From Campylobacterales bacterium (GTDB taxonomy: Bacteria; Campylobacterota; Campylobacteria; Campylobacterales; Nautiliaceae), in contig JALUWM010000092.1 of the NCBI GenBank assembly GCA_027019465.1, positions 1 to 47,100 of the forward strand: a stretch of DNA of 47,100 nucleotides. The letters run 5' to 3'. This document shows, one piece after another, positions 19,039 through 36,373 of the stretch. Numbering within the stretch: the stretch's first letter is position 1; every line of letters starts with the position of its first letter. The notes below the pieces were generated by a model, which saw nothing but the letters and a program-made list of their open reading frames with translations, ran no database searches and was not told where the DNA came from. Both the position numbers and the translations under genes were made by a program.

Positions 19039-19770
<732 letters not shown>

Positions 19771-19835
19771 TTATTGGTATATTCGTGTATTAGTTAAAAT
19801 ATTACAAATAACCAATCACTAATTACTAATAACCA
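19771..19835. repeat. Degenerate ~8-nt tandem repeat in facing inverted arms
   Basis: Left arm TTATTGGTATATTCGTGTATTAGTTA (ATTGG/ATTCG/ATTAG at 19773, 19781, 19789); right arm ACAAATAACCAATCACTAATTACTAATAACCA. Confidence 0.8.
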
Positions 19836-19842
19836 TTTTTGC

Positions 19843-19848
19843 TATAAT
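19843..19848 (+). promoter_or_regulatory. Extended -10 box (TGCTATAAT) for rpoZ-spoT
   Basis: TTTTTGCTATAATTTCGC 22 nt upstream of the rpoZ ATG. Confidence 0.6.
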
Positions 19849-19869
19849 TTCGCTAAAAAAGGACAAAAA

Positions 19870-20073
19870 ATGAGAGTAGAACAAATTAGTGCCGAAGCAC
19901 TTGAAAAAGTAAATTACGATAGATACCTGTTAGCCCAAGCTGTTTCAAAAAGAGTTAATGAACTTTTAAATGGAGCAAAACCTCTTATAGAACTTCCTAA
20001 AAAAAATATGCAACCTACAGAAATTGCCATTTTAGAAATTGCAAAAGATTTAATTAAGGTAAATGAGATTTGA
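19870..20073 (+). CDS. rpoZ: DNA-directed RNA polymerase subunit omega
   Basis: MRVEQISAEALEKVNYDRYLLAQAVSKRVNEL; between pyrH and spoT. Confidence 0.93.
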   Translation: MRVEQISAEALEKVNYDRYLLAQAVSKRVNELLNGAKPLIELPKKNMQPTEIAILEIAKDLIKVNEI

Positions 20074-28584: not shown

Positions 28585-29775
28585 TTACTCTTTTGTAACA
28601 CTCTGTAACAGTTTTTCTATGTTTTTAATAATTTTTTGAATAGATTTTATTTCCACTTTTTCTCTAACTGAATGTGGATTTTTGATATTGGGTCCGTAAC
28701 TTGCCATTGATACATTTGGAAATTTTTCTTTTAAAATTCCGCATTCAAGTCCTGCGTGAATAACTTCTAAGTTATTTCTTGTAATTTCCTGTAATTTTAA
28801 AGCCAAATCACTTTTCTCAGGAGCCCAGGCTGGATATTCATCTTCAAAATCCACTTCACATCCAAGGGTTTTAATTTTAATATATTCTTTTATTTCTTCT
28901 AATTTTTCATTTGTATTTGCCCTAGCACTTAACACTATGTTTTCTTCTTCAATCAAAGCAAAATTAACAGATTTACTTGGAAGCTTAAATTCAAAATTAT
29001 ATTCAAGTACCCCATAAGGAAGCTTTCTTAAAAATTTAAGATATTCATTATCATAAATTTGGATTTCTTCACTTCCTTCAAATACTTCTAAAGCCATAGC
29101 ATTTACAGGAATAGAATTTCTTCTCTCCCCTCCTTTAATAAAAGCTAAATTATCAACTTTAAATAAAAGTTCCACTATTGCGTTTGGAATATTTTTATCA
29201 ATATCAACACCACTGTGACCGCCAGGTAAATTTTCAACACTCACTTTTCCATAAGAACCGTTTATTTTTTCCTTTTTTAAAGGATATTTTATTTTTACAT
29301 CAACCCCGCCTGCACAACCTATTAAAATAACATCATCATCTTCACTATCCAAATTTAAAAGATATTTTGATTTTATATTAAGTTCTAAATTTTTAGCCCC
29401 TATAAGACCTATTTCTTCATCGTTTGTAAACAAAAATTCCAAATCATCATACTTTTTCATTAAATAGATCATAATAGCAATTCCAATTCCATTATCTGCC
29501 CCAAGAGACGAATTTTTTGCTTTTAAATATCCATTTTCTTCCATAACTTCAATTTTAGGAGCATCTCCTACACAAACCATATCCAAATGAGATTGAAAAC
29601 ATATTTTTGGAAAATTTTTTCTAGCTAATAAATTTCCAGCCTTATCACTTAAAACTTCATATCCCAAATTTTTTGCATAATTTTCTAAAAACTCCCTTAA
29701 CTCTTTTGTATTACCGCTGCAATGAGGGATTTTTGTAATTTTGATAAAATTTTCCAAAACTTCTTTTAATGCCAT
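28585..29775 (-). CDS. pepD: Aminoacyl-histidine dipeptidase (PepD-type, M20)
   Basis: IPHCSGNTKELREF, FQSHLDMVCVG, LGADNGIGIAI, LFTNDEEIGLIGA, LPGGHSGVDI. Start at 29775 preferred (AAAGGATGAAT-ATG). Confidence 0.93.
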   Translation of the reverse strand: MALKEVLENFIKITKIPHCSGNTKELREFLENYAKNLGYEVLSDKAGNLLARKNFPKICFQSHLDMVCVGDAPKIEVMEENGYLKAKNSSLGADNGIGIAIMIYLMKKYDDLEFLFTNDEEIGLIGAKNLELNIKSKYLLNLDSEDDDVILIGCAGGVDVKIKYPLKKEKINGSYGKVSVENLPGGHSGVDIDKNIPNAIVELLFKVDNLAFIKGGERRNSIPVNAMALEVFEGSEEIQIYDNEYLKFLRKLPYGVLEYNFEFKLPSKSVNFALIEEENIVLSARANTNEKLEEIKEYIKIKTLGCEVDFEDEYPAWAPEKSDLALKLQEITRNNLEVIHAGLECGILKEKFPNVSMASYGPNIKNPHSVREKVEIKSIQKIIKNIEKLLQSVTKE

Positions 29776-29811
29776 ATTCATCCTTTGATATAATTTCTAA
29801 AAAGGTCTTTT

Positions 29812-29997
29812 ATGAAAATATTATTCTTAATAATAGCACTTTTTTTTGCAGGTTGTGTAGATAAAACAGGAATTTCTCTTGATTTATATCCTAATTGTGA
29901 AGAAAATTACGATTTATATGGAGTTTATTATCAAAAATGTAAAAACAATATATATAATTTCAAAAAAAAGAGAAAAATCTGTCTTGATTGTAATTAA
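29812..29997 (+). CDS. Small Cys-rich putative lipoprotein
   Basis: 61 aa; signal with lipobox LFFAGC; C-terminal cysteines; TATAAT at 29789-29794. Confidence 0.6.
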   Translation: MKILFLIIALFFAGCVDKTGISLDLYPNCEENYDLYGVYYQKCKNNIYNFKKKRKICLDCN

Positions 29998-30012
29998 AAT
30001 TATTGTATAGTG

Positions 30013-30085
30013 GTGTATTAGTTATTGGTGTATTTGTCATTTTAACCAATATACCAATATACCAATATACTACTAACAAATACAC
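30013..30085. repeat. Degenerate ~8-nt repeat with long inverted arms, including (ACCAATAT)x3
   Basis: Perfect 10-bp inverted pair GTGTATTTGT (30028-30037) / ACAAATACAC (30076-30085); AACCAATATACCAATATACCAATATAC in the right arm. Confidence 0.9.
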
Positions 30086-30099
30086 AAAAAAGGATAGCA

Positions 30100-30987
30100 T
30101 TGAATATTAAAGAGATTTTAAAAGAACGACAAAAATGGTTTGAATGGAAAAATATAGAACCGATATACGAAAAAATTAAACAATGGAAAATGGAAAATAG
30201 AAAATTAAAATACGAATATAAGATAGGAGATATTATAGAAATTAATGGAGAGGAAAATCCTAAAATTTTAGAATTAGCAAAAATGCTTAAACCTTGGAGA
30301 AAAGGACCTTTTAAAATAAATAACATTTTTATTAACAGCGAATGGAAAAGTTATATAAAATGGAATACTATAAAAAAATTTTTGGATTTAGAAAATAAAG
30401 ATATTTTGGATATTGGATGTAATAACGGATATCATATGTTTAGAATGTTAAAATCTAATCCAAAAAGCATAACCGGCTTTGACCCAAGTGCTTTATTTAA
30501 TCTTCAATTTGAATTTATAAATTCATTTATTAAAAGTAATATTGAATATAAACTTCTTGGGGTCGAACATATCCCATATTATGAAAAAAAATTTGATACT
30601 ATTTTTTGTATGGGAGTTTTATATCATAGAAAAGACCCTATTGAAATGCTAAAAGAAGTAAAAGCCGGACTTAAAAAAGGAGGAGAAATAATTTTAGATA
30701 CTTTAATTATTGAAGGGAATGAAGAAGTTGCACTAAGCCCAATCAGATATGCAAAAATGAAAAATATCTATTTTATTCCAACACTTAAAACTTTATATAA
30801 CTGGATTGAAAAAACAAATTTTAAGAGCATTGAATTTATAGGCAAACGATATACAACTATAAACGAGCAACGCAAAACTGAGTGGATAGAAGGTGAAAGT
30901 TTAGAACATTTTTTAAATAAAAATCAAACAAAAACAATAGAAGGGTACGAACCACCTCTACGTCTTTATCTAAAAATAAAAAATTAA
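30100..30987 (+). CDS. cmoB: tRNA U34 carboxymethyltransferase (TTG start)
   Basis: KWFEWKN...KIKQW, WRKGPFKIN, SEWKSYIKW, VLDIGCNNGYHMFRML-like SAM motif, GVLYHRKDPIEML, TEWIEGESLEHFL. Confidence 0.9.
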   Translation: MNIKEILKERQKWFEWKNIEPIYEKIKQWKMENRKLKYEYKIGDIIEINGEENPKILELAKMLKPWRKGPFKINNIFINSEWKSYIKWNTIKKFLDLENKDILDIGCNNGYHMFRMLKSNPKSITGFDPSALFNLQFEFINSFIKSNIEYKLLGVEHIPYYEKKFDTIFCMGVLYHRKDPIEMLKEVKAGLKKGGEIILDTLIIEGNEEVALSPIRYAKMKNIYFIPTLKTLYNWIEKTNFKSIEFIGKRYTTINEQRKTEWIEGESLEHFLNKNQTKTIEGYEPPLRLYLKIKN

Positions 30988-32011: not shown

Positions 32012-33003
32012 AAATGGAGAATTTAAAATTTTTTTTGATTGATTTTGAAGGGAATATTTTTATTAAAGATGTAAAAAATTTAAAAAACATCTATTTCTCA
32101 TTTCCCTTATTCACCCATCCGCCCATCCGCCCATCCACTCATCCACCCATCCACCTAAAAAAATATCCAATATCTTTTGAAAAATATCAAAAAGCCTTTA
32201 ATGAAGTGATTGAAGAAATAAAAAAGGGAAATACTTATTTACTGAATCTAACTTTTCCAACATTAATAGATACAAACTTAAACTTAAAAGAAATTTACTC
32301 TATATCAAAAGCCCCTTTTAAACTTTTTTTTAAAGATAAATTTGTATGTTTTTCTCCGGAAAGATTTGTAAAAATTGAGAATAATAAAATCTATACCTAT
32401 CCTATGAAAGGCACTATTGATGCAAATATTCCAAGTGCTAAAGAAAAAATACTTTCAAATATTAAAGAAATGGCAGAACACACAATGATTGTTGATTTAC
32501 TTAGAAATGATTTAGGAATTATAGGAAAAGATGTAAAAGTAAATAAATTCCGTTTTATAGATAAGATAAAAGCCGGAAATAAAGAGCTATTACAAGTCAG
32601 CAGCGAGATTGAAGCCACACTTCCTAAAAATTGGGGAGAAAATTGGCTTGAATTAATTTTAAAAATGCTACCAGCCGGAAGCATCACCGGAACTCCTAAG
32701 AAAAAAACAGTTGAAATTATAAAAAAAGTTGAAAATTATAAAAGAGGCTATTACACCGGAATTTTTGGAATAACAGATGAAAAAACATTTTTAGATAGTG
32801 CTGTGATTATTAGATATATTGAGAGAGGAGAAGATTTGAGTTCCAAGCTCCAAGTTCTGTCATCAACCCATCCACTCATCAACCCATTAACCCATCAACC
32901 CATTTACTCATTCACTTACAAAAGTGGCGGAGGAATCACAATAGACAGCAATCCATATAATGAATATGAAGAATTAATAAATAAAGTTTATATTCCCCAT
33001 TAA
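32008..33003 (+). CDS. pabB: Para-aminobenzoate synthase component I-like (chorismate-binding)
   Basis: [61 protein letters not shown]. Confidence 0.88.
32112..32156. repeat. 8-nt tandem repeat inside pabB (site 1)
   Basis: cacccatc-cgcccatc-cgcccatc-cactcatc-cacccatc-cacct; encodes [14 protein letters not shown]. Confidence 0.92.
32838..32917. repeat. Tandem repeats inside pabB (site 2): TTCCAAG/CTCCAAG then 8-nt CATCAACC-type
   Basis: ttccaagctccaagttc followed by catcaacc-catccact-catcaacc-cattaacc-catcaacc-catttact-cattcact. Confidence 0.92.
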
Positions 33004-35785: not shown

Positions 35786-36373
35786 ATGGAATTTATTGAA
35801 ACAATATATGTGAAAAATGGTAACATATTAAATTTAGATTATCACTTAGAGAGGATGAAAAGAACGGCTCAACACTTTAAATGGAAAACTGATATAAATG
35901 AAAAGTTAAAAGTGAAAAGTGAAAAGTATAAAAAAAGTGAAAAGTTAAGGATGAGAGTTGTATATAATGAAAAAGAAATTATTAACATTGAAACTTTTCC
36001 TATAAAAGAAAGAAAATTTAAAAAATTTAAAATAATAAAGACTGATAATTTTGATTATAAATTTAAATACAAAAACAGAGATTTTTTCACTTTACACTTT
36101 TCATTTTACACTAATTTTGACGAGTTTATCCTAATCAAAAATAATCTTATAACCGACACTACAATTTCGAATTTAGCTTTTTATACAGGCAAAGAATGGC
36201 TAACACCAAAATATCCCCTGCTTAAAGGCACTAAAAGAGCTGAACTTTTAGATAAAGGATTTTTAAAAGAAGAAAATATCCAAAAAAGCGATTTAAAATA
36301 TTTCAAAAAAATGGCAATGATAAATGCTATTTTAGGATTTAGAGAAATTGAAGAATATGATATAATTAGCTAA
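35786..36373 (+). CDS. pabC: Aminotransferase class IV, 4-amino-4-deoxychorismate lyase-like
   Basis: FIETIYVKNGNILNLDYHLERM, NLITDTTISNLAFYTGKEWLTPKYPLLKGTKRAELL. Confidence 0.8.
   Translation: MEFIETIYVKNGNILNLDYHLERMKRTAQHFKWKTDINEKLKVKSEKYKKSEKLRMRVVYNEKEIINIETFPIKERKFKKFKIIKTDNFDYKFKYKNRDFFTLHFSFYTNFDEFILIKNNLITDTTISNLAFYTGKEWLTPKYPLLKGTKRAELLDKGFLKEENIQKSDLKYFKKMAMINAILGFREIEEYDIIS
35896..35950. repeat. 7-nt tandem repeat (AAAAGTG) inside the pabC-like gene
   Basis: aaaagtg-aaaagtg-aaaagta, with degenerate flanking copies. Confidence 0.88.
36085..36114. repeat. Opposite-orientation 7-nt repeat (CACTTTT) inside the pabC-like gene
   Basis: cacttta-cactttt-catttta-cact; inverted relative to 35896-35950. 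Confidence 0.85.

Follow-up and report, generated by a model that had tools for sequence, protein, structure and literature searches.

Arrays of heptamers have been catalogued in bacteria for decades, with no origin given. The STRR heptamers of filamentous cyanobacteria, for instance, are degenerate 7-nt units which are dispersed, mostly intergenic, and patchy between relatives. TAACTGA direct repeats have been described in marine Beggiatoaceae, cyanobacteria, and Bacteroidetes, with a single inverted case among 170 sets; their author noted the scatter across phyla, gave no mechanism for it, and proposed a protein-binding role (MacGregor 2015, PMC4679880). Paired octamer/heptamer elements of Geobacter metallireducens are interpreted as regulator-binding sites (PMC2700814). 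Additionally, the tandem repeats of Borgs are error-free and head-to-tail, with an A-bias on one strand (PMC9879509).

The window considered here, a whole stretch of 47,100 nucleotides from a Campylobacterales bacterium of the Nautiliaceae, belongs to a fragmented metagenome-assembled genome (MAG) of 1.14 Mb in 171 contigs, 70% complete (hereafter G000). Between a small lipoprotein-like gene and cmoB we find an insert of 92 bases, which fills the entire gap from the lipoprotein stop codon (TAA, 29995-29997) to the Shine-Dalgarno sequence (table 1). A previous sequence-only reading had described a foldback octamer repeat at 30013-30085. The octamer array and its 10-bp inverted pair are indeed present, but the true insert is larger, at about 29998-30089. 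Within it, GTGTATTAGTTATTGGTGTATTTGT spans 30013-30037 and (ACCAATAT)x3.25 spans 30045-30070, while GTGTATTTGT (30028-30037) and ACAAATACAC (30076-30085) are exact reverse complements, the pair ending 14 nt before the cmoB TTG. The bottom strand of the right arm is C-free and reads inward. A perfect 26-nt period-8 run and the two-word pattern each occur once in the real window and in none of 150 dinucleotide shuffles of it. The downstream gene is bona fide cmoB with a TTG start, again as the earlier reading had it, and the 61-aa product of the upstream gene gave no family match. A repetitive-looking segment within cmoB (30182-30205) was left out of the inserts because the same-genus relative G006 is similarly long there.

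Table 1. Coordinates of the word arrays and neighboring features in the window.
Feature	Position	Strand	Basis or remark
Small lipoprotein-like gene, 61 aa	29812..29997	+	Upstream of the insert; genus-wide conservation
Whole word-array insert	29998..30089	.	Absent in six same-genus orthologues; reorganised form in G006
Left arm, C-free words GTG-GTGTATTA-GTTATTG-GTGTATTT-GT, inward	30010..30037	+	Sequence; same grammar at about nine dispersed genome places
Inter-arm junction CATTTTA (hairpin loop)	30038..30044	.	Sequence; junction common to G006 (TATTTGTCATTTAATCCAATATACC)
Right arm, G-free (ACCAATAT)x3.25 then ACTACTAACAAATACAC	30045..30085	-	Period 8, 100% matches
cmoB Shine-Dalgarno AAGGA, outside the hairpin	30090..30094	+	Kept in empty-site relatives
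cmoB, tRNA uridine-34 carboxymethyltransferase, TTG start	30100..30987	+	NCBIfam PRK15068, 368.5 bits (cut-off 209)
Second window copy after pyrH, TTATTGGTATATTCGTGTATTAGTTA ... TTACAAATAACCAATCACTAATTACTAATAACC	19766..19835	.	E=2e-9 to query
ATGrGT-class array (CACCCATC x5.5) within pabB, in frame	32112..32155	-	TRF; linker varies among relatives
Two-class element within pabB, left GAGTTCCAAGCTCCAAGTTCTG, right TCATCAACCCATCCACTCATC..., in frame, variable loop	32838..32920	.	Repeat and pattern search

Comparison with relatives provides the empty sites that the sequence-only reading had proposed to look for. Six of the seven relatives from the genus have an empty cmoB site, with stop, Shine-Dalgarno, and start only (TAAAGGATAACATTG in G007), as do several members of other genera. 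G006 carries a related but reorganised element, and in four genomes from two other genera (G009, G013, G014, and G016) the place is taken by arrays whose words are quite different. Since the stop codon and the Shine-Dalgarno sequence stayed intact when the operon junction was lengthened, a mild effect on cmoB is expected. Seven further sites were aligned to relatives. The pyrH site is empty in six of them (G001-G005 and G007) and filled in G006 with unrelated words (GTTGTAAAGGTATTAGAAG), and the trxB-dapB site is empty in most. Unlike the other sites, that of locus L003 (G000:C7:7657-7727) lies in a long intergenic region that could not be aligned to any of the relatives, and thus appears to be a generally unstable gap. 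The pabB loop measures 3-4 aa in G007, G002, and G012, and 20-30 aa in G000, G006, and G003. The cleanest case comes from a phage contig (L317), in which an array with different words in its two arms lies between the scaffold gene and the major capsid gene; the site is empty in all four relatives (88, 75, 59, and 59% identity).

Some inserts lie within genes or bring further sequence with them. Arrays of other words (CACCCATC, AAGTTCC, and TGAAAAG) are found inside pabB and a pabC-like gene. Both pabB loops listed in table 1 take a short or otherwise different form in relatives, so that the arrays give rise to new protein segments of low complexity. The pabC-like gene holds GAAAAGTGAAAAGTG words at 35899-35945 and CACTTTACACTTTTCA words 140 bp on (36084-36112), G-rich inward and in frame. 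The pyrH-site insert (19766-19870) carries a promoter-like TTTTTGCTATAATTTC, common to G006 and missing in empty-site relatives, and so the downstream gene may have gained its own promoter.

The sequence-only reading had also named other copies and a stable fold as what to look for, and both exist. A BLAST search of the 83-bp element against its own genome returned about nine further, dispersed places, with 76-93% identity over parts, in what is a 70%-complete assembly. The copies have a common grammar, not a common sequence: in one arm GTRTATTN octamers alternate with GTTATTN heptamers, the latter being degenerate 7-nt units of the STRR type, and the other arm is the reverse complement. The exact two-word pattern has nine matches in the genome, every one in such elements. 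Dispersed copies, empty sites, and inverted arms would suit a foldback or MITE-like mobile element, the octamer arms representing terminal inverted repeats for a transposase acting in trans. Nevertheless, transposition is disfavoured because it predicts conserved ends and none were found: arms vary in words, length, and class both between and within elements, many elements have two different word classes, and the arms of one element are no more alike than those of different elements. No consistent target-site duplication was seen in the empty-site alignments, although flanks there are only about 75-95% identical. We consider a MITE-like origin very unlikely. What stands of the mobile repeat suggested earlier is that the inserts are derived and dispersed; they have neither conserved termini nor coding capacity, and their arms are independent.

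To place these arrays in a wider frame, a 25-base grammar pattern was scanned against the GTDB genome collection. At least 116 stretches match, in Campylobacterota, Desulfohalobiaceae, Chloroflexi/Ardenticatenaceae, Bacteroidota, Peregrinibacteria, and Nitrospirae, the named relatives with the same words being Nautiliaceae (Campylobacterota) MAGs. Isolate genomes (Lacihabitans) match too, and the arrays are therefore not just an artefact of MAG assembly. General low complexity was rejected as an explanation, a reversed-pattern control giving counts near zero in most genomes, and the plasmid, E. coli, and GenBank phage collections yielded no match. Across Campylobacterota the arrays occur patchily, even among members of one genus: G000 and G006 carry this word class, and the remaining six do not. 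One archaeal match (L131, labelled Methanocaldococcaceae) was not counted, since its contig resembles a Nitratifractor contig (L087) and is probably mis-binned in a public genome. Of the genomes seen, G025 (Nitratifractor S012_110 by RT match) is the richest in arrays, with over 100 matches to TTATTGG words, of which many lie at contig ends.

Most placed arrays (82 of 88) are intergenic, 64 in co-directional, 10 in convergent, and 8 in divergent gaps, with six intragenic. This context resembles that of background gene pairs (355 co-directional, 61 convergent, and 69 divergent; co-directional versus rest, p=0.42). In co-directional gaps the array begins a median of 22 nt from the stop and ends a median of 20 nt before the start. 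Such nearness to starts, together with the heptamer repeats reported near start codons in Beggiatoaceae (PMC4679880), would be consistent with selection, upstream of genes, for an array of sites bound by a nucleic-acid-binding protein, as MacGregor envisaged for TAACTGA repeats. However, the upstream stop is equally near, arrays are also found in convergent gaps and inside genes, and at the pyrH site the words have been swapped for another class in a relative. We regard a binding-site origin as improbable.

The fold itself invites an explanation at the RNA level, in which the hairpin would control the cmoB 5' UTR, act as a processing site, or terminate the lipoprotein gene. The insert lies between stop codon and Shine-Dalgarno and folds stably (-29.1 kcal/mol, z -3.7 over 111 nt; z -5.1 when 93 nt are folded), and the G006 element at this site folds as well (z -2.6). 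Yet six same-genus orthologues do without the element. The terminator function put forward by the sequence-only reading fails on several counts: the right arm is followed by AAAAAAGG with no T-run, there are no terminator-like sites in 29700-30400, and the enrichment in convergent gaps which terminators predict is not seen (10 of 82 intergenic arrays vs. 61 of 485 background pairs). Its other suggestion, sequestering of the 5' UTR, is not supported: the AAGGA lies outside the hairpin and, across elements, the pairing of own arms does not exceed that of swapped arms. Rfam returned nothing above the gathering score, the best match being a eukaryotic snoRNA at 23.5 bits against a threshold of 45. 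An RNA-level role is thus, in our view, quite doubtful.

In 33 of the 80 scanned loci, a complementary arm lies downstream of the G-rich arm and nowhere else; in one locus it lies only upstream, and in two it is present on both sides. Arm pairs of the same class, in all fetched DNA, point inward in 70 cases vs. outward in 8. The same polarity holds for cross-class arms, which are unable to pair: 23 inward vs. 2 outward (p=2e-5), in a sample where some loci are related or share an element and where the orientation of AAGTTCC was set after seeing examples, and 18 vs. 2 once the AAGTTCC class is left out. In viral arrays, ascertained separately with three other word-class patterns and scored by the longest G-free run alone, that run lies downstream in 46 and upstream in 18. 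Furthermore, GC skew flips at the element center even in elements without a same-class right arm. The two arms are also independent of each other. A left arm matches its own right arm at 0.55 vs. 0.60 for right arms of other elements in the same genome (n=51), and on average 37% of folding swaps are less stable than the element's own pair (n=45), the cmoB element itself standing slightly above its swaps (70%). Selection for a hairpin was rejected, as swapped arms fold equally well or better; it and inverted duplication are disfavoured because both predict well-paired arms, which are not seen.

Polarity also bears on minisatellite or STRR drift, in which replication slippage and recombination expand arrays from local seeds. 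Drift could give rise to polarity if arrays grew from the two edges of an AT-rich gap, or through strand composition, with no synthesis at break ends. Pure tandem arms do exist (e.g., TTATTGG x12 in L139), several genomes have single-locus GTGATTAG arrays, and at the sites they share, G000 and G006 have their words in a reshuffled order; the pure TTATTGG runs make it clear that slippage acts on arrays after their formation. As the origin of the arrays, however, slippage from local seeds does not place the same words in scattered parts of a genome or in unrelated phyla, nor does it give a two-sided polarity across different word classes, and it does not account for a de novo phage insert where four relatives have none. 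Overall, we judge drift unlikely, if less so than the mobile, binding-site, and RNA-level explanations.

G-rich 3'-end addition would read G-rich then C-rich on one strand. From unlike and independent G-rich strands, each running inward, we infer 3'-end extension and joining, and we tentatively favour, at slightly less than an even chance, the reading of the element as an insertion scar, in which G-rich words were added to each 3' end at a break before the two ends were joined, a process deduced from the layout. The layout itself is shown by the data: the elements constitute a dispersed class of inserted arrays of irregular 7-8-nt, G/T-rich, C-poor words, which sit in gaps between stop codon and Shine-Dalgarno sequence, start at both edges of the insertion, and run 5' to 3' to the center, the top strand being G-rich and then its complement. 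The arms would be made separately, through 3'-end extension at both sides of the break, either templated or by reiterative slippage, with the extended ends joined afterwards. The imperfect hairpin would represent a by-product of one vocabulary used on both ends, not a selected feature. Several observations speak against break-end extension. The recurrence of the same words in unrelated phyla is not accounted for. Moreover, G000 and G006 have junction sequences in common at the cmoB, trxB-dapB, and PolX sites, where G007, closer to G000 by flank identity (82-95% vs. 73-86% for G006), is empty; loss, element-sized transfer, or recurrent insertion are possible explanations.

A further point against break-end extension is that none of the enzymes checked (RVT_1, Ku, and PolX) could be tied to the arrays. 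Reverse transcriptase was rejected as cause, RVT_1 being found in neither G000 (70% complete) nor G006 (97% complete); among a further 18 genomes with arrays, it is present in 7 and missing in 11. Ku end joining was likewise rejected, with Ku in none of 21 family genomes. PolX is enriched in array-bearing Campylobacterota (7/20 vs. 14/180, p=0.0017), a comparison that is phylogenetically confounded, and p falls to 1e-5 once single-locus pure tandem cases are dropped post hoc. Because the array-richest genome (G025) is without PolX, which is found in only 9 of the 18 array-bearing genomes of the wider scan, the link to the arrays is left as suggestive. Directly upstream of the G000 PolX gene there is an array of three word classes (L011, G000:C34), which may be a coincidence; its flanks adjoin without an array in G007 and lie apart in G001, G003, G004, and G005, indicating a synteny breakpoint. 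More speculative than the insertion scar itself, and rather unlikely at present, is the broader proposal that unrelated bacteria and some of their phages have in common a means of healing DNA breaks that needs neither Ku nor RT, with telomere-like 3' extension by G-rich 7-8-nt words, joining, and polar scars.

In relation to known systems, we view the element as a variant among its nearest kinds, namely STRRs, TAACTGA repeats, and the paired elements of Geobacter. It resembles STRRs in its degenerate 7-nt units, dispersal, intergenic location, and patchy occurrence, and differs in that arrays mix 7- and 8-mers, with C-poor words running head-to-head inward and several classes per element. With TAACTGA repeats it has in common intergenic heptamer arrays near starts, a scatter over unrelated phyla, and related heptamers interspersed; in contrast, the two-armed inverted layout is common here, and the words are different and of many classes, the units being of TAACCAA/TAACTAA/TACACCAA type and not TAACTGA. 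The Geobacter metallireducens elements are similar in having three to five tandem 7-8-mers, often paired on opposite strands and also intragenic, with words that differ from those here (PMC2700814). Borg repeats likewise evolve fast, occur in intergenic and genic locations, and encode low-complexity protein stretches (PMC9879509), while the arrays described here are head-to-head. No description of inward polarity or arm independence was found in the literature searched, which leaves out most subscription journals. By analogy, the G-rich 3' addition proposed here may be likened to the interstitial telomeric repeats at repaired eukaryotic breaks and to TdT N-regions, with the difference that array-bearing members of this genus are without RVT_1 and Ku, and that a telomerase-like or TdT activity is putative at most. 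Inward polarity, even for arms that cannot pair, and independent arms point to a testable origin, namely that a break had both its 3' ends extended. Should this reading prove false, some other cause for the polarity is still needed, since neither hairpin selection nor inverted duplication explains it. If it is true, bacteria would have their own counterpart of telomere-like break healing, and such arrays could serve to map past breaks.
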